This document shows positions 1 to 6,216 of a stretch of DNA of 6,216 nt, one piece after another. Location: positions 1 to 6,216 of the forward strand of contig JAGQHH010000193.1 of NCBI GenBank assembly GCA_020431945.1. Reading direction: 5' to 3'. Within the stretch, counting starts at the first letter, position 1, and every line of letters begins with the position of its first letter. Under the pieces are notes generated by a model, which had not been told where the DNA came from, did not search any database, and was given only the letters and a program-made list of their open reading frames with translations. The position numbers and the translations under genes are program-made. Origin of the DNA: Cyanobacteria bacterium HKST-UBA02 (GTDB lineage Bacteria > Cyanobacteriota > Vampirovibrionia > Obscuribacterales > Obscuribacteraceae).

Positions 1-1624
1 GATCCTTGTTGAACGCCTGGATAACGCCAAGACCTGTATATGAGCCTCCGAGAATGCCACCGGTGTCGATCTTGCTCCGGGGCTTGGCCAGCATTATGGA
101 CTGCTCGAAGAGCGCTTGTGTTTTCGCCATGAGCTTCACGGCGCTGGCATGGTCGAGATCGATCGCCTTTCTTACTTGAAGACTGGCATATTGAGCAAGG
201 ATATAAGAACAGAAGAGAGCATCGACTCCTTTGTAATCGCCGGACTCGATGGTTTTGTCGATTACCGGTCTAATCCTGACGAAGACCTTCTCCGCGGCTA
301 CGGGATCGTCTTCTATAATCGCAGGCAGAATTGCGAAGACTGCGCAGGCAAGCTGCTCGGTAACCGGCGCTTCATTATCCAGAGAGCGCTCGAAATTGCG
401 CAGATAGATCTGGGACCCCTCGGCACTGGTGGTGGTGCTTCGTGTAATCTCCGCCCGGGCGAGATCGATAAGGGTGTGCCGATCTCCGCTCTTGAGCGGA
501 GCTTCTCTCCTGGCGGCGGAGACAACCGCCTTCTCATTCTGCCCGGAGGGACCGGTCGACTTCCCGGCGCGGACAAGGCCATCCAGGATCCAGCCGGCGG
601 CAAAAGAGAGCGCACCGACAAGTATGAGTACGACCAGTGACACACCCGGTTTCACCGTGCGTGCAGAAGCGGAGGGAACCAGCATGGACTTGAGAGCGGC
701 GGCACTCTCCGGTCGTTGATCCGGATCTTTCGAGAGACAGGACTCCACCGCCTGGACCATGGATCTATCAAGACCGGGTTTCAGATCGAGCATCCCGGAC
801 GGGTCCGATTCGAGTTGTCTGGTCAGGGTCTCCATGACATTGCCGGTATAGAAGGCCGGCTTGCCTGTAAGAGCCTCATAAAGGACGCTGCCCAGAGAAT
901 AGATATCCGATCGCGGACTGACACCGGCTCCACGAATCTGCTCCGGACTGAGATAGCCCGGCGTGCCTACCAGTTTGCCGGTGCGGGTGAGGCGCTGCAT
1001 CTCGCCGCCTTCGAAATCCTGGAATGAGACACCGAAGTCCACGAGCCTGGGAGTCTCCTCCCCGCTCCAACCGGTGGTCAGGACTATATTCTCGGGCTTG
1101 ATATCGCGATGTATGACACCATGGTCGTGAGCGAATTGCAGCGCTTCGCAGAGCTTCGCTCCCAGAGCCTGCACTCGCCCCGGCTCCAGGGCACCGCGCT
1201 CCTTGAGCAGAGCCTTGAGGCTGAGACCGGCAGCATATTCCATGACGATATAAGGAGAGCCGTCGTCGGTGATACCGAGCTCGTAAATCTCGACGAAGCC
1301 CGGATGGCTCAGAGCTGCCAGAGTCCGAGCCTCTCGCTCGAAACGCTGGACCGCGGTCTGGCTCCCCAGCTTGTCGCGATGAAGAATCTTGAGCGCCACC
1401 GGTCTGGCCAGGGTGAGGTGCTCCATCAGATAAACGGTGCTGGCAGAGCCCCTGCCCAGGGTCTTCAAATATTTGAATGATGACGACAGAGATCGCAAGG
1501 GCAGAGCGATATCCTCGTCTGCCGCCGAATCGATGGAAATGGTCGCATCGAGACCGGACATGGAAGGGCGAGTCACGCAAATGCACTCGTCCAGAGCCTT
1601 CGAGCAGATGCTGCAGGTTTCCAT
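1..1624 (-). CDS. Membrane-anchored Ser/Thr protein kinase (Hanks type), C-terminus cut by window edge
   Basis: Transfers phosphate from ATP to Ser/Thr of target proteins, probably as a membrane sensor. The frame stays open for 541 codons and runs off the left edge. Kinase motifs are in order: Gly-rich loop LGRGSAS (56-62), ATP-binding Lys79 in VALK, helix-C FEREA (95-99), catalytic HRDIKPEN (172-179), DFG (196-198), GTPGYLSPEQ (220-229) and SDIYSLG (239-245). It is an RD kinase; Thr213, Thr215 and Thr221 are possible activation-loop sites. A hydrophobic helix lies at about 327-347, followed by a mostly helical, TPR-like extracytoplasmic part. The N-terminus has four cysteines, C4-x2-C7-x6-C14-x-C16, resembling a small metal-binding knuckle. 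The ATG at 1624 is chosen because an in-frame TGA lies four codons upstream and AAAGGAG (1628-1634) precedes it, though only 3 nt away. The gene is transcribed divergently from the acetyltransferase at 1771. Substrates are unknown. Confidence 0.95.
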   Translation of the reverse strand, partial: METCSICSKALDECICVTRPSMSGLDATISIDSAADEDIALPLRSLSSSFKYLKTLGRGSASTVYLMEHLTLARPVALKILHRDKLGSQTAVQRFEREARTLAALSHPGFVEIYELGITDDGSPYIVMEYAAGLSLKALLKERGALEPGRVQALGAKLCEALQFAHDHGVIHRDIKPENIVLTTGWSGEETPRLVDFGVSFQDFEGGEMQRLTRTGKLVGTPGYLSPEQIRGAGVSPRSDIYSLGSVLYEALTGKPAFYTGNVMETLTRQLESDPSGMLDLKPGLDRSMVQAVESCLSKDPDQRPESAAALKSMLVPSASARTVKPGVSLVVLILVGALSFAAGWILDGLVRAGKSTGPSGQNEKAVVSAARREAPLKSGDRHTLIDLARAEITRSTTTSAEGSQIYLRNFERSLDNEAPVTEQLACAVFAILPAIIEDDPVAAEKVFVRIRPVIDKTIESGDYKGVDALFCSYILAQYASLQVRKAIDLDHASAVKLMAKTQALFEQSIMLAKPRSKIDTGGILGGSYTGLGVIQAFNKD

Positions 1625-1691: not shown

Positions 1692-1709
1692 ATTCGTGTC
1701 TCGCAAGAC

Positions 1710-1738
1710 TTTTTACGGGCCGCCGGAAGCTCTATAAT
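1710..1738 (+). promoter_or_regulatory. Promoter of GNAT A with perfect TATAAT -10
   Basis: TATAAT occurs at 1733-1738. About 17 bp upstream is a T-rich, poor -35 (around 1710-1716, TTTTTAC). The predicted start is near 1745. An ATG at 1747 would then be essentially leaderless, whereas the ATG at 1771 would have a leader of about 26 nt. The weak -35 suggests that an activator or other regulation is involved. Confidence 0.55.
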
Positions 1739-1757
1739 CTTGAAAGATGCTTTCAAG
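1739..1757. promoter_or_regulatory. Perfect 8+3+8 bp dyad at the GNAT A transcription start (operator candidate)
   Basis: CTTGAAAG (1739-1746), ATG (1747-1749) and CTTTCAAG (1750-1757) form a perfect inverted repeat. It begins on the base after the TATAAT -10 and spans the expected transcription start, the usual place for a repressor operator. As RNA it would give an 8 bp stem with a 3-nt loop only if transcription began upstream of 1739, so a DNA-level role is more likely. The regulator is not identified. Confidence 0.5.
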
Positions 1758-1770
1758 TGGTGAGCAAACC

Positions 1771-2247
1771 ATGGTAGCCGGTACAGAGTTCAAGATCGAG
1801 ATCCTCAAGACGAAAACAGACGAAACCGTCTGTCGACTGCTGCGCCAAATTCCCTTTTTCACCTTCGAGCCTACCATTCTCGAGTACGGGCAGGAGACCC
1901 TCAAACCCTTCGCCACTACTTTGATAGCCACCTCCGAAACCGGACAGGCCATCGGCTGTGCCGTCATCGAAGTCACGAACGAGATCACCATGGAAATAGT
2001 GGTCATGGGTGTCCACCCGGACTACCTGAGACAGGGTGTCGGCTCCGCCCTCATCGCCAGGGCTGAAGAGATAGCCCGGAGCAAGGACAAGAAGTTTCTT
2101 CTCCTGAAGACTCTGGGACCAAGCCAGAGGGATAAGGATGCGGACAAAGCTCTCAAGTTTTTCTACAAAAACGACTTCTGCCTGCTCACCGAAATGGACT
2201 TCGTATGGCAGGACAGCTACTGCGGGATCATGCTCAAACAGCTCTAG
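1771..2247 (+). CDS. GNAT-family N-acetyltransferase A
   Basis: GNAT-fold acyltransferase that should use acetyl-CoA; the acceptor is unknown. The fold signature is the strand EIVVMGV (75-81) followed by acetyl-CoA loop YLRQGVGSAL (85-94), with G89 and G91 in place but Leu86 where many GNATs have Gln/Arg. Later conserved parts are TLGPSQ, a FFY segment and the C-terminal DFVW...YC..M.K.L. It is a paralogue of the protein at 4783-5259, roughly one third identical by eye. The start at 1771 is preferred over the ATG at 1747: GGTGAG lies 6 nt upstream, 1747 falls inside the promoter dyad, and the resulting 158-residue length and residue numbering match the paralogue. Compared with the paralogue it lacks the family's LPExFGxE motif, having IPFFTFE instead, so its acceptor may differ. 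Its stop overlaps that of the convergent phosphoketolase-like gene. Confidence 0.88.
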   Translation: MVAGTEFKIEILKTKTDETVCRLLRQIPFFTFEPTILEYGQETLKPFATTLIATSETGQAIGCAVIEVTNEITMEIVVMGVHPDYLRQGVGSALIARAEEIARSKDKKFLLLKTLGPSQRDKDADKALKFFYKNDFCLLTEMDFVWQDSYCGIMLKQL

Positions 2248-4571
2248 AGAGCGGACTCCCGGCGCTTCTCGATGGCTCGGCAGGCCTCTTCCGTGGATGC
2301 TTGCGATCTTCCGGAGACGGCAAGCGCATCGAGAGCCAGGCCGAATCTATCGATGCCACTGGCGATGGCATGGGCAAGGCCGCCCGCTCCCCGGTCGTTG
2401 CCCCGGAAGCCGCGCAAGACGAAATCCTGCTGCCTGAGTCTGCCGGCAAGCAGGATTCCTATATCGGCGACAAAGCCCTGGTGGCAAAAGACCAGTCCAG
2501 CCCCGGGCGGGAAGTACCGCTCGAACCGATCTCTCGAAAGACCGCCCGGGTGAAACCCGGAATCTCGCAGTCGATTCAGGTTGACGACATTGACCACCTG
2601 TACGACAAGATCCGGAACCAGCTCGCGCAGAAGCGCTGCCGCTGCCAGGGTCTCCCGGGAAGGCACCGCCCCGGCACAGGCAAGAACAACATCCGGCTTG
2701 CTCCCTTCGCCCTCCAGAATACCGATACCATCGAGACAATGCTTGCGTGCCTGGTCCAGAGTCATCAAGCTCTGCCTGGCATCGGCATCGATCACAATTA
2801 TGTTGATTCGTTCAGTAGACTCGAGACAATTTGCCAGGGTGGCAAGAGCTGTGTTGCAGTCCGGAGGCAGGAGCACATCGATACGCTTGTCCGGCTGAAT
2901 CAAAGCCGCTTGCGTGAAGCCGGGCTCCTGAACCGGTACTTCCGAATCGGCACACCACTGGCTCGAGATCAGCAGATAATTGAGCGAAGAGATAGGCTTG
3001 CGCCAGGGGACCTCGGAAGCGCAGGCGAGCCAGTGGGCGAAGTGCCCGAGCATGGACGCGACGATATTGGTATAGTGCTCCGAAAGGACGAAGACACCAT
3101 GCCTGCCGGTGAGCAGATAGCCTTCGAGCCAGGCCTGGCAGGCCCTGTGCGAAAGCATCTCCACCACTCGCCCTTCGTTGCCGACATCGACTTCTTCAGC
3201 ATCGCCTTCGCCGGCCAGCACCCTCTGGGTGACATCGAAAATCGAGGCGAGATATTCTCCAGAATTGGTGCCGTCCGAGCTGAAGAGTCTAAATGTCTTA
3301 CGATTGGCGGCAATCACATCCCTCAGGAAATCACTCACCCTGGAGACGATACGGACCTCGGCTGCCTCGCCCTCTCCCGCACCGGAAACCACCGGAACCG
3401 CGCTCTCTTCCAGGGAAGGGATGTTCAGATCTTTGCGCAGACGCCCGCCGTTGGCCGCAGCCTGAGAGCCCAGCCGCCCCTCGGCATCGGGGATGAATTG
3501 CGCTGGCTCGGCCAGAAGGGTGCCGTCCTTCTCGAAGAGAGAGCCGATGTTGTAGCTGAAGAACCAGCGCTCAAGGAGCTTGAGCTGTCTGGTGGAATCC
3601 CCGGGAGAGAAGCGCTTCATTCGCAGATCGAGACTGGTGCCCTCGAAGCGCTTGCCATCGACGACCTTGGGACCGGTCCAGCCTTTCGGAGTCTTCAAAA
3701 CGATCATGGGCCAGATCGGTGTAGTAGCAGATGACCCGTTGCCGCCGGCACTCTTCAGCCGACGGATGTCCTCGACAGCGGTATCGAGAGCCGCTGCCAG
3801 ATGCTGCTGAACTGCCTCGGGGTCAGTGTCCTCGACTATCAGAGGATGATAGCCGTAACCCTGGAACATGGCTTCGAGCTGGCTGTTACTGAGTCGAGAA
3901 AGAACCGTCGGCGCCGCCACCTTGTAGCGATTGAGATGGACTACTGGCAGAACCACACCGTCCCGGGTTCGGTTCAGGTACATATGGGAGAACCAGGCTG
4001 CGGCAAGGGCACCGGTCTCGGCCTCACCGTCCCCGACGATACAGCAGGCGATCAGGTCGGGATTATCCAGCACTGCGCCATAAGCATGAGCAAGGCTGTG
4101 CCCGAGCTCGTAACCGGCCTGAATGGTCCCGGGTATGCCCGGGGCACCATGTGTATATGTCCGGTACGAAAAGCGGCGGAACAGCTCGTCGATACCGGCA
4201 GCATTGCTTTCCACTTCCGGGTAGTGCTCGCTATAAGAGCCATCGAGAAATGAGTTGGCTGCAAGAGCCGCGCATCCATGGCCGGGACCGGAGACCAGGA
4301 GCAATTTGAGATTGTTCCTCTTGACTATCCGGTTGAGGTGGGCACAGATCAGATTGATACCGGGAATAGTGCCCCAGTCACCGAAGATCTCGTCTTTCAG
4401 ATCCCCGGCAGTCATAGGGCGGGAGAAAAAGGGATTCTGCCTGAGAAATATCTGTCCAAGGGAAAGAAAATTCGCCGCTCTCCAGTAGAGCCTGAGACTG
4501 CGAAGCTCCTCGAGCGAAAGCGGACCCATGCTTTCCACCGAGACCTGAAGACTGCCTTCGTCTTCTATCAC
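2244..4571 (-). CDS. Phosphoketolase-family protein with most catalytic residues replaced (probable pseudoenzyme or repurposed)
   Basis: Active members (Xfp/Xpk) are ThDP enzymes that cleave xylulose-5-P or fructose-6-P with phosphate to acetyl phosphate and an aldose phosphate. This 775-residue product has near-normal length and collinear family motifs: YWRAANFLSLGQIFL (29-43), GPGHG (95-99), Mg-ThDP motif GDGEAETG (180-187) with N214, PKGWTGPK (295-302), LEGYLLTGRHG (482-492), PWRKPISSLNYLL (522-534), VVNVVNL (659-665). Against Bifidobacterium Xfp, recalled from memory, His64 is Asp65, His320 is Leu316, the ThDP-activating Glu479 is His475, Tyr501 is Ser497, the HNGFSHQ loop is replaced and shortened (538-548), Lys605 is Ala596, and the STTTPYDM segment near 727-736 is gone. 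Equivalents of His97, His142, Asp183, Asn215 and Lys300 remain. No stop or frameshift is seen. The GTG start has AAGGAG 7 nt upstream. Ordinary phosphoketolase activity is doubtful; an altered ThDP function, a regulatory subunit or a scaffold is possible. Confidence 0.92.
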   Translation of the reverse strand: MIEDEGSLQVSVESMGPLSLEELRSLRLYWRAANFLSLGQIFLRQNPFFSRPMTAGDLKDEIFGDWGTIPGINLICAHLNRIVKRNNLKLLLVSGPGHGCAALAANSFLDGSYSEHYPEVESNAAGIDELFRRFSYRTYTHGAPGIPGTIQAGYELGHSLAHAYGAVLDNPDLIACCIVGDGEAETGALAAAWFSHMYLNRTRDGVVLPVVHLNRYKVAAPTVLSRLSNSQLEAMFQGYGYHPLIVEDTDPEAVQQHLAAALDTAVEDIRRLKSAGGNGSSATTPIWPMIVLKTPKGWTGPKVVDGKRFEGTSLDLRMKRFSPGDSTRQLKLLERWFFSYNIGSLFEKDGTLLAEPAQFIPDAEGRLGSQAAANGGRLRKDLNIPSLEESAVPVVSGAGEGEAAEVRIVSRVSDFLRDVIAANRKTFRLFSSDGTNSGEYLASIFDVTQRVLAGEGDAEEVDVGNEGRVVEMLSHRACQAWLEGYLLTGRHGVFVLSEHYTNIVASMLGHFAHWLACASEVPWRKPISSLNYLLISSQWCADSEVPVQEPGFTQAALIQPDKRIDVLLPPDCNTALATLANCLESTERINIIVIDADARQSLMTLDQARKHCLDGIGILEGEGSKPDVVLACAGAVPSRETLAAAALLRELVPDLVVQVVNVVNLNRLRDSGFHPGGLSRDRFERYFPPGAGLVFCHQGFVADIGILLAGRLRQQDFVLRGFRGNDRGAGGLAHAIASGIDRFGLALDALAVSGRSQASTEEACRAIEKRRESAL

Positions 4572-4578
4572 CAGAATT

Positions 4579-4584
4579 CTCCTT
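4579..4584 (-). promoter_or_regulatory. Ribosome binding site fixing the GTG start of the phosphoketolase-like gene
   Basis: AAGGAG on the minus strand lies 7 nt before a GTG at 4571, which is near-ideal spacing. It supports the non-ATG start, from which the family-conserved YWRAAN motif begins at residue 30, as in Bifidobacterium Xfp (about residue 29). Confidence 0.8.
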
Positions 4585-4603
4585 AACCCGCCAGGTCTTA
4601 TCT

Positions 4604-4609
4604 ATTCTA
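4604..4609 (-). promoter_or_regulatory. Candidate -10 element for the phosphoketolase-like gene
   Basis: TAGAAT on the minus strand matches TATAAT at five of six positions and lies about 33 nt upstream of the GTG, which would give a leader of about 26 nt. No convincing -35 is seen 16-18 bp upstream. A second, weaker possibility is TAATAT at 4699-4694, inside the left arm of the 4686-4734 dyad. Confidence 0.3.
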
Positions 4610-4685
4610 TAGCGTTGCAGCACCTTTGAGCGAGCCCGCAGCCGGCTTCGAAAAGATTCCCGGCCGGAGCCAGCATTTTCCCTAC

Positions 4686-4734
4686 CGAGATTGATATTAG
4701 ATTCACCGAAAAGGGCAGTATAATCTCAATCTCG
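4686..4734. promoter_or_regulatory. Imperfect 16 bp inverted repeat overlapping the GNAT B -10 (operator candidate)
   Basis: The left arm 4686-4701 starts CGAGATTGA and the right arm 4719-4734 ends TCAATCTCG. The outer 9 bp pair perfectly and 14 of 16 bp pair overall, with a 17 bp centre. The right arm contains the TATAAT -10 at 4719-4724. The repeat lies between the divergent phosphoketolase-like and GNAT B genes, so one regulator could affect both. There is no T-tract, so it is not an obvious intrinsic terminator. Confidence 0.5.
4697..4724 (+). promoter_or_regulatory. Promoter of GNAT B with perfect TATAAT -10
   Basis: TATAAT lies at 4719-4724. A weak -35, TTAGAT (4697-4702), sits 16 bp upstream; a better-matching TTGATA (4691-4696) is 22 bp away, too far for normal spacing. 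The start would be near 4731, giving a leader of about 52 nt. The eight bases TATAATCT are shared with the GNAT A promoter. Confidence 0.5.
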
Positions 4735-4782
4735 AAGAGTTTCTCAATAACAGATTCTGGTACGAAGTCTCGGTAAAACTCA

Positions 4783-5259
4783 TTGCCGCTAACTCAATTC
4801 AAAGTAAAAGAATTGATGTCCCACCAGGATCGAGTGGTAGGTCAGATTCTGCGGGCCCTTCCCGAATATTTCGGATTCGAGGCCGGCATCGTCGACTTCT
4901 GCGAAGCCGCCCGCAAGATGAAAAACACAACTTATGCTGCCATCACCGATGACGGCACCCGGGCAGGTTTTCTACTCTTGACCATGAACAACAACATGAC
5001 TGCCGAGATCTGGGTCATGGGGGTGCTTCCCGAATTCCACGGTCACGGCATCGGCAAAGCTCTTCTCGAACGAGCCGAGACCGAATCGCGCAAACGAGGT
5101 CGCCGCTACATCATGGCTCGTACCATTGGACCCAGCCAGAACGATCCAAACTATCTCAAGACCTTCAATTTCTACCTGCACAACGGCTATTCGATGCTGG
5201 TCGAATATGACTTCGTCTGGAAAGGCGACTATTGCGCTTTCATGGTCAAGAAGCTCTGA
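4783..5259 (+). CDS. GNAT-family N-acetyltransferase B
   Basis: A 158-residue GNAT-fold acetyltransferase; acetyl-CoA donor by family, acceptor unknown. Visible parts are LPEYFGFE (26-33), typical of a bacterial GNAT subfamily with LPEWFGIE, the strand AEIWVMGVLPEFH (74-86), acetyl-CoA loop GHGIGKAL (87-94), RTIGPSQND (113-121), FNFYLHNGY (128-136) and the C-terminus DFVWKGDYCAFMVKKL. It is a paralogue of the protein at 1771-2247, with G80, G89 and G91 at identical residue numbers. A TAA in frame three codons upstream limits the start to TTG 4783, TTG 4813 or ATG 4816. TTG 4783 keeps the FK(V/I) beginning that aligns with the paralogue and gives the same length, but its ribosome binding site is weak, so ATG 4816 remains possible. 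It is divergent from the phosphoketolase-like gene and upstream of hcp. Confidence 0.88.
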   Translation: MPLTQFKVKELMSHQDRVVGQILRALPEYFGFEAGIVDFCEAARKMKNTTYAAITDDGTRAGFLLLTMNNNMTAEIWVMGVLPEFHGHGIGKALLERAETESRKRGRRYIMARTIGPSQNDPNYLKTFNFYLHNGYSMLVEYDFVWKGDYCAFMVKKL

Positions 5260-5393: not shown

Positions 5394-6216
5394 ATGAGCA
5401 TGTTCTGTTATCAGTGCGAGCAAACGTCCCAGTGTACCGCCTGCACCACCATGGGGGTTTGCGGCAAAACGCCTGAGACAGCTATTCTCCAGGACGTCAT
5501 GGTCTACCTCGCCAAAGGCATATCGCAATATGCCAACCGCGCCCGGAAGCTCGGCAAAACCGATTCTTCGGTAGACAGCTTGACCCTGGAGTCATTGTTC
5601 ATGACCCTGACCAATGTCAATTTCGACGAAGGGGAGCATGTCTCCTATATCAACGACAAGATGCTCCCGGCACTGGAAAAAGCCAGAGCCATGTATCTGG
5701 AAGCCTGCTCGCAAAAGGGCATGCAAGCCGAGACTCTCACCGGTCCTGCTTCCTGGGATCACAAGAAAAGCCGGGATCAGCTACTCGAGTTCGGACAGAC
5801 CATCTCGATAGTCCAGCGGGCTGCTAAAACCGATGCCGATATAGTTTCGCTTCAAGAGCTACTCACCTACGGCGTCAAAGGGCTGGCCGCCTATGCGCAC
5901 CACGCTCAGCTCCTGGGCTACACGGACGAGTCGATCTATGAATTCGTGCACCGCTCTTTCGACTACCTCACCGGTGCCGACCAGAAAGCGTCCGAGCTCC
6001 TCGCCCTCTGCCTGGAAGCCGGCAAAACCAACCTGACCGTGATGGAGCTTCTCGATCGCGCTCATACAGACACCTTCGGGCATCCGGTGCCGACCGTGGT
6101 CCGCACCACCCATATAAAAGGCAAAGCCATTCTCGTCTCCGGTCACGATCTCAAGTCTCTATATGAGTTATTGGTCCAGACCGAGGGCAAAGGCATCAAT
6201 GTCTACACCCACGGCG
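5394..6216 (+). CDS. hcp: Hybrid-cluster protein / hydroxylamine reductase Hcp, N-terminal 274 residues (cut by window edge)
   Basis: Hcp is a cytoplasmic Fe-S protein that reduces hydroxylamine in vitro and acts in nitric oxide detoxification and protein S-nitrosylation in E. coli. The N-terminus carries C5-x2-C8-x8-C17-x5-C23, the spacing of the class I proteins of anaerobes that bind a [4Fe-4S] cluster, followed by GKTPETAILQD. Further family motifs are YGVKGLAAYAHHA, TFGHPVPTVV and SGHDLKSLYELL. His251 corresponds to hybrid-cluster ligand His244 of Desulfovibrio; the Glu268 equivalent would be residue 275, of which only the first base (G) is in the window, right after YTHG. The remaining ligands (Cys, Glu, Lys) lie beyond the edge. 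An extra cysteine, C14, sits inside the N-terminal motif. The start is set by AGGAG 8 nt upstream. The upstream neighbour is GNAT B, 134 bp away on the same strand. Confidence 0.96.
   Translation, partial: MSMFCYQCEQTSQCTACTTMGVCGKTPETAILQDVMVYLAKGISQYANRARKLGKTDSSVDSLTLESLFMTLTNVNFDEGEHVSYINDKMLPALEKARAMYLEACSQKGMQAETLTGPASWDHKKSRDQLLEFGQTISIVQRAAKTDADIVSLQELLTYGVKGLAAYAHHAQLLGYTDESIYEFVHRSFDYLTGADQKASELLALCLEAGKTNLTVMELLDRAHTDTFGHPVPTVVRTTHIKGKAILVSGHDLKSLYELLVQTEGKGINVYTHG

Follow-up and report, generated by a model that had tools for sequence, protein, structure and literature searches.

The window analysed here is a 6,216-nucleotide stretch of Cyanobacteria bacterium HKST-UBA02 (contig JAGQHH010000193.1), and its central gene (2244..4571, minus strand) encodes a phosphoketolase-like protein of 775 residues, termed here the pseudo-phosphoketolase, which lies between two GNAT acetyltransferase genes on the plus strand. 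The open reading frame starts with GTG. It contains no internal stop, and is thus intact as the first-pass annotation of this DNA had described it. Descent from phosphoketolases is indicated by matches to three Pfam domains, XFP_N (residues 20-377, 405.5 bits), XFP (residues 412-585, 149.1 bits) and XFP_C (residues 600-772, 118.1 bits), all above their cut-offs of 23.7, 22 and 23.4 bits. Six NCBIfam phosphoketolase models also matched, all below cut-off (best score 792.1 against 962 bits). An AlphaFold2 model of the protein was obtained with a mean predicted local distance difference test score (pLDDT) of 87.8 and a predicted template modelling score of 0.90, and the 13 top entries in a structure comparison (VIA-align) were all phosphoketolases, so that the predicted fold is that of the family. 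The input alignment held 116 sequences: the six members of the group described below and 110 canonical relatives from among the 183 further search hits, on which the pocket geometry of the model therefore leans. The active-site loop (residues 541-550) reached a mean pLDDT of only 60, and a model made from the six members alone (pLDDT 40.9) was not used.

The six members, including the window protein, were aligned with 67 canonical phosphoketolases. Of these, 31 came from the 50 non-member matches in genomes of the same order and 34 from the 183 further hits of the database searches; the remaining rows were the printed parts of the Synechococcus elongatus and Bifidobacterium longum enzymes. Residues are numbered as in the B. 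longum enzyme, and lists of active-site residues were taken from the accessible text of PMC10547157 and PMC6435721. At the position of Glu479, which activates thiamine diphosphate (ThDP), the window protein carries His475 (codon 3147..3149; this and all codons below are on the minus strand) and the six members read H, H, Q, Q, Q and Q; the activating glutamate of the pyrimidine domain is missing from all of them. His64 is replaced by Asp65 (4377..4379; D, D, N, C, C and G in the members), His320 by Leu316 (3624..3626; Leu in 6/6) and Tyr501 by Ser497 (3081..3083; S, S, A, S, S and F), whereas the canonical enzymes have E, H, H and Y at these four columns in 67/67 rows. These are the four replacements reported in the first-pass annotation, and they are real. 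The annotation had asked whether D65, L316 and H475 form a conserved clade. L316 marks all six members; D65 and H475 are no marker of the whole group, since four of the six carry Gln at position 475 and His475 is confined to the window protein and P0002, a relative 87% identical to it.

The losses extend further than had been noticed. Gly155 is replaced by Tyr154 (4110..4112; Y in five members and F in the sixth, canonical G in 67/67), Gln321 by Arg317 (R, R, K, K, K and R), Glu437 by Gly434 (G, G, G, G, C and G), Asn441 by Gly438, Arg442 by Glu439 and Lys605 by Ala596 (A, A, V, P, A and V). In the active-site loop, Q546, H548, N549 and H553 are aligned with A541, S543, E544 and V547, letters that depend on the alignment; the canonical loop motif HNGFSHQDPG is absent from 6/6 members, and the H553 column, within this alignment-dependent stretch, reads H in two of them (P0003 and P0006). 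At the replaced columns the canonical residue is found in 67/67 rows, except for H548 (66/67) and R442 (60/67). Two further columns vary within the group, H142 (H, H, A, N, H and S) and S440 (Ser in five members, Thr in one).

None of H64, H320, E479, Y501, H553 and K605 is present in the window protein, which lacks the catalytic residues of a functional phosphoketolase. The three Pfam domains would fit an ordinary active enzyme that tolerates such changes, but only three of the 13 residues in the active-site list of PMC10547157, as far as its accessible text gives them, are kept (H97, H142 and S440) and none of the six matching NCBIfam models reaches its cut-off; we regard an active phosphoketolase as very improbable. 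Fourteen pocket residues were drawn from the same two accessible texts, and 13 of them fall among the 178 columns that are invariant across the canonical rows. Of the 13, H97 alone is conserved in all six members, compared to 86 of the 165 other invariant columns (Fisher p = 0.0025); in the window protein alone, three of 13 pocket columns are conserved compared to 117 of 165 (p = 0.0009). Misalignment as the origin of the replacements was rejected: GPGHG, GDGEAET, TPKGWTG and GRHG, near the lost residues, are common to members and canonical enzymes, and two alignments agree on the letters at H64, H320, E479 and Y501. Neither puts Glu and His back into the pocket. The two disagree in the gapped active-site loop (window residues 541-549), where individual letters are uncertain.

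The six proteins top both a single-sequence search and a profile search, each reporting the best 120 of 7998 scored candidates that share most words with the query. With the window protein as query, the sixth member scored 715 bits and the first canonical protein 694 bits; in the profile search, the step from members to canonical proteins was from 1289 to 909 bits, a gap that the search itself partly creates, since the six members supplied the profile. The group is set apart by its common residue pattern, losses like those of the window protein recurring in the other five members, and by the tree, in which the six are monophyletic (Shimodaira-Hasegawa-like approximate likelihood ratio test support of 100, with long-branch warnings). 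The root of the group among canonical enzymes is uncertain because the branches are long: a first tree placed it deep beside the B. longum enzyme, flagged as long branches meeting, and two mixture-model trees, with fewer rows and some members missing, placed it with weak support among canonical xylulose 5-phosphate enzymes.

The group appears to be small. Profile searches found members in two of 53 genomes of the same order, SZAS LIN-3 (G001, filed as unclassified Cyanobacteriota) and REEB67 (G049). A sample of 382 genomes from the class, often with just two candidates scored per genome, gave no further member. Of the 50 non-member matches from the 53 order genomes, 31 had their residues checked, the other 19 including fragments; partial phosphoketolase matches, which may reflect split contigs or broken copies, were seen in G012, G030, G037, G045 and G046, some at contig ends. 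One scan of the GTDB r220 genome set with a DNA pattern specific for the group returned a single contig, that of SZAS LIN-3. REEB67 was missed by this pattern, as a serine codon differs there, and therefore other members may have been missed too. Carriage of the gene by viruses or plasmids was considered and rejected: the same pattern had no match in viral contigs, and the plasmid records matching the protein, 225 in number, were all below 60% identity (43.9-44.7% in the eight listed).

All six proteins are unbroken and span 761 to 780 residues. The ratio of non-synonymous to synonymous substitution rates (dN/dS), determined by the Nei-Gojobori method over 779 codons for the one measurable pair, SZAS LIN-3 and REEB67, was 0.115; pairs with the window protein, which were saturated, and P0002 were left out. 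The canonical phosphoketolases of SZAS LIN-3 and REEB67, compared over 670 residues of each protein, gave a dN/dS of 0.086 over 668 codons, and of 0.143 with the second copy of REEB67. These values are approximate because dS is near saturation, ranging from 1.47 (the pseudo-phosphoketolase pair) to 1.90. In the pair measured, the sequences indicate purifying selection, and the relaxed selection typical of a decaying gene was not observed. Sequencing error was rejected on the same grounds as decay, six unbroken proteins and the dN/dS of 0.115. A decaying gene copy would agree with the long branches and with the drift of pocket positions described below, but the unbroken frames, the dN/dS value and a set of anchor residues identical in all pairs make it scarcely credible.

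Canonical phosphoketolases are present in the genomes of both SZAS LIN-3 (one copy) and REEB67 (two copies), on contigs other than those of the pseudo-phosphoketolase. All three carry H64, H97, H142, G155, H320, E479, Y501, H553 and K605, and the normal reaction is therefore covered in these genomes. A second, canonical enzyme, for which the first-pass annotation had proposed to search, was thus found in the two member genomes analysed. The presence of canonical copies raises the possibility that the pseudo-phosphoketolase associates with the canonical enzyme of the cell, in mixed dimers or larger complexes, and tunes it. According to the accessible text of PMC10365998 and PMC5315409, phosphoketolases assemble into dimers, octamers and dodecamers, and their active sites lie where the two subunits of a dimer meet; the full fold is retained in the AlphaFold2 model. 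However, the gene and the canonical genes lie on separate contigs, its neighbours encode GNATs, and residues of the ATP-binding C-terminal interface of the S. elongatus enzyme (SeXPK) are replaced. The ATP motif comprises eight residues in the accessible text of PMC10365998; of the seven mapped (R753 was left out), P702, W703, H706, Y710, R711 and H719 are replaced and R721 is kept, and the window protein does not carry the motif of the ATP-inhibited enzyme. W703 and R711 vary among canonical rows as well (kept in 51/67 and 57/67). Mixed assembly is thus, in our view, distinctly unlikely.

Another part of the active site is retained. The window protein keeps H97 (its H98), GDGE (180-183), N215 (N214), K300 (K296), H142 (H141) and S440 (S437), and His97, GDGE, N215 and K300 are unchanged in 6/6 members. 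GDGE (codons 4023..4034), N215 and K300 are presumably holders of the Mg-diphosphate, as in transketolase-type enzymes, and GDGE with N214 corresponds, in all six, to the GDG...N Mg-diphosphate motif of ThDP-dependent enzymes. Counting His97, GDGE, N215 and K300, none of the 15 possible pairs of members differs at any of these seven anchor positions. At 15 mostly lost pocket positions, agreement was 14/15 for P0001 and P0002 (87% identical overall), 9/15 for P0004 and P0005 (73% overall) and two to seven of 15 for distant pairs, compared to overall identities of 41-48%. The old catalytic positions therefore drift as freely as the rest of the protein, or more so, whilst the anchor is fixed.

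In addition, 21 residues are fixed in the group yet present in fewer than 10% of canonical rows, including E61, F63, C100, T138, T149, Q151, L316 and S432. Measured along the sequence, 13 of the 21 lie within eight residues of a pocket position, compared to 48 of the 175 other fixed residues (p = 0.002); the figures are 10/21 and 37/175 at six residues (p = 0.013) and 7/21 and 23/175 at four (p = 0.024), the p values being uncorrected for the three radii tried. These newly fixed residues near the pocket would suit a ThDP enzyme with a glutamate-independent chemistry, in which the anchor holds ThDP and Gln or His475, with Tyr or Phe154, Leu316, Arg or Lys317, Cys100, Glu61 and Gln151, supports another reaction. 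The accessible text of PMC3534367 offers a parallel, as glyoxylate carboligases have valine where the active-site glutamate would stand, which is taken as a sign of a different mechanism. A new active site, however, would be expected to vary less than other parts of the protein, and the lost positions mostly vary among members, the one high agreement (14/15) being that of the closest pair; moreover, Tyr or Phe at Gly155 may clash with the cofactor. We consider such a chemistry rather unlikely.

The genes on either side of the pseudo-phosphoketolase provide the strongest functional lead, one absent from the first-pass annotation. GNAT-A (1747..2247, plus strand) is convergent with the pseudo-phosphoketolase, with an overlap of 4 bp; read from an internal ATG at 1774, it has a form of 157 residues that aligns with its relatives. 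GNAT-B (4783..5259, plus strand) is divergent from it, and the intervening stretch (4572..4782) is presumed to be a divergent promoter region, in which no clear shared operator was seen in a three-way alignment. The order and orientations GNAT-A, inverted pseudo-phosphoketolase, GNAT-B were found in the three readable loci: the window, SZAS LIN-3 (L001; GNAT-A 3624-4097 plus, pseudo-phosphoketolase 4102-6444 minus, GNAT-B 6622-7098 plus) and REEB67 (L034; 1217-1690 plus, 1698-4088 minus and 4229-4711 plus, on a contig of only 5.5 kb). Genes beyond this module differ among the three. Tandem GNAT-A and GNAT-B genes without the pseudo-phosphoketolase were found in G005 (L057, 7573-8803) and G017 (L058, 7605-8619). 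In a tree of the GNATs, the A copies grouped at 93/92 support, the G017 copies being flagged as long branches. The pair is probably older than the central gene, or able to lose it.

As to the substrate of the GNATs, neither passed an NCBIfam cut-off and their PDB matches were distant GNATs only; a PADLOC search for defence systems gave no match for either or for the pseudo-phosphoketolase. Distant relatives of GNAT-A occur in 14 plasmid records. Its relatives P0191 (89% identity, labelled Candidatus Obscuribacterales) and P0195 (80%) come from NCBI genomes, on contigs of 171 kb and 2.86 Mb, unlike the two pseudo-phosphoketolase clusters nearest the window's, neither of which lists an NCBI source. 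A single GNAT of this family stands in G052 (L059, 7798-8259) beside two frames of small multidrug-resistance-type transporters and an acyltransferase-like frame of 397 residues, as read from translations. In G018 (L060, about 5055-5219), a GNAT fragment interrupted by a stop codon is probably the remnant of a decayed copy. A gene resembling tetratricopeptide-repeat proteins upstream of GNAT-A in SZAS LIN-3 and G005 was considered as common synteny and not used (E = 0.004 in a two-sequence comparison). Elsewhere in the window, 2-1624 (minus strand) encodes a Ser/Thr protein kinase (Pkinase, 163 bits) that runs off the edge; the Cys-rich stretch at its start (CSIC...CIC) is a possible zinc-binding motif. 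The N-terminal half of a protein of the hybrid-cluster (prismane) type is encoded at 5394-6215 (plus strand; 287 bits for the NCBIfam hydroxylamine reductase model on the partial protein).

Combined, these results make it probable, if by no means certain, that the protein is a pseudo-phosphoketolase that has lost catalysis and has been retained as a regulator or as a partner that binds a ligand, with a probable link to the GNATs. As expected of a pseudoenzyme, catalytic loss extends across a monophyletic group (6/6) and purifying selection is seen in the pair measured. Among the roles suggested in the first-pass annotation, that of a pseudoenzyme gains from the group-wide losses, the dN/dS of 0.115 and the canonical copies, and a new ThDP chemistry is weakened; the protein may also be an allosteric partner of the active phosphoketolase, as in the mixed assembly considered above, and has itself lost most of the known ATP allosteric site. 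None of the observations that the annotation had listed as refuting was encountered, among them active phosphoketolases with the same replacements. The protein would descend from an ordinary phosphoketolase and retain its complete fold. It has lost proton-transfer histidines as well as Glu479 and its neighbours, without which ThDP would not be activated normally, and with the substrate-phosphate residues and the active-site loop gone ketose phosphates would not be held. Lacking both ThDP activation and a hold on ketose phosphates, the protein should therefore be dead for the phosphoketolase reaction. The intact GDGE-N anchor probably still grips a Mg-diphosphate ligand, either ThDP or a similar molecule, although the usual pose of ThDP may be barred by Tyr or Phe at Gly155 and by Leu at His320. 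The role would then be that of a ligand-responsive regulator or scaffold instead of a catalyst. The place between two GNATs in every locus read suggests that the pseudo-phosphoketolase acts with or on them, and it could be a ligand-sensing partner, a scaffold or an acetylation target. In a more specific version, which we offer tentatively and think less than likely, a former phosphoketolase now serves as a subunit that senses a cofactor or sugar phosphate and either controls the GNAT pair or is modified by it, with the Mg-diphosphate grip as the sensor. If true, an enzyme of acetyl phosphate would have been recast as a regulator of acetylation.

Several points weigh against a ligand-binding partner of the GNATs. 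Firstly, the changes at Gly155 and His320 could block ThDP itself, so that the anchor may be only structural; moreover, the anchor set was picked after the alignment was seen and its role is presumed from transketolase-type enzymes. Secondly, a canonical copy is established for SZAS LIN-3 and REEB67, not for the window's own genome. Thirdly, the three-gene context is known for three of the six members, not for P0002, P0003 and P0006, and the GNAT pair stands alone in G005 and G017, where the GNATs therefore do not need the pseudo-phosphoketolase.

Pseudoenzymes are familiar among kinases and proteases. In the literature searched, no paper joined phosphoketolase with pseudoenzyme or with Obscuribacterales. 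A natural family with a diphosphate grip and without the activating glutamate offers a ready test of how ThDP proteins turn into sensors or acquire a glutamate-free chemistry. It also calls for caution, as Pfam matches alone are poor ground for assigning phosphoketolase activity, and two members carry the name 'phosphoketolase family protein' in public records.

Compared to canonical xylulose 5-phosphate phosphoketolases (SeXPK, 8io8; B. longum Xfpk, 3ai7), the window protein has Glu479, His64, His320, Tyr501, His553, Lys605 and the loop replaced and, with respect to SeXPK, six of the seven mapped ATP-site residues. Yeast Thi3, which is kin to pyruvate decarboxylase, is likewise a relative of ThDP enzymes used as a regulator. 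Unlike the window protein, for which a sensing role is a proposal, Thi3 belongs to another enzyme family, is eukaryotic and acts with transcription factors; it is called a 'thiamine sensor' in the accessible text of PMC4299793. Glyoxylate carboligase resembles the pseudo-phosphoketolase as a ThDP family without the activating glutamate, according to the accessible text of PMC3534367, but it has valine there, is active and belongs to a different family, whereas the pseudo-phosphoketolase has Gln or His and has lost most of the active site. Finally, as far as the accessible descriptions of the B. breve phosphoketolase mutants go, H64A (3ahg), H320A (3ahi) and H553A (3ahj) alter positions at which the window protein carries natural replacements, and H142A (3ahh) one that it keeps; the B. 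breve set consists of single changes made in the laboratory, whereas the window protein has many combined by evolution.

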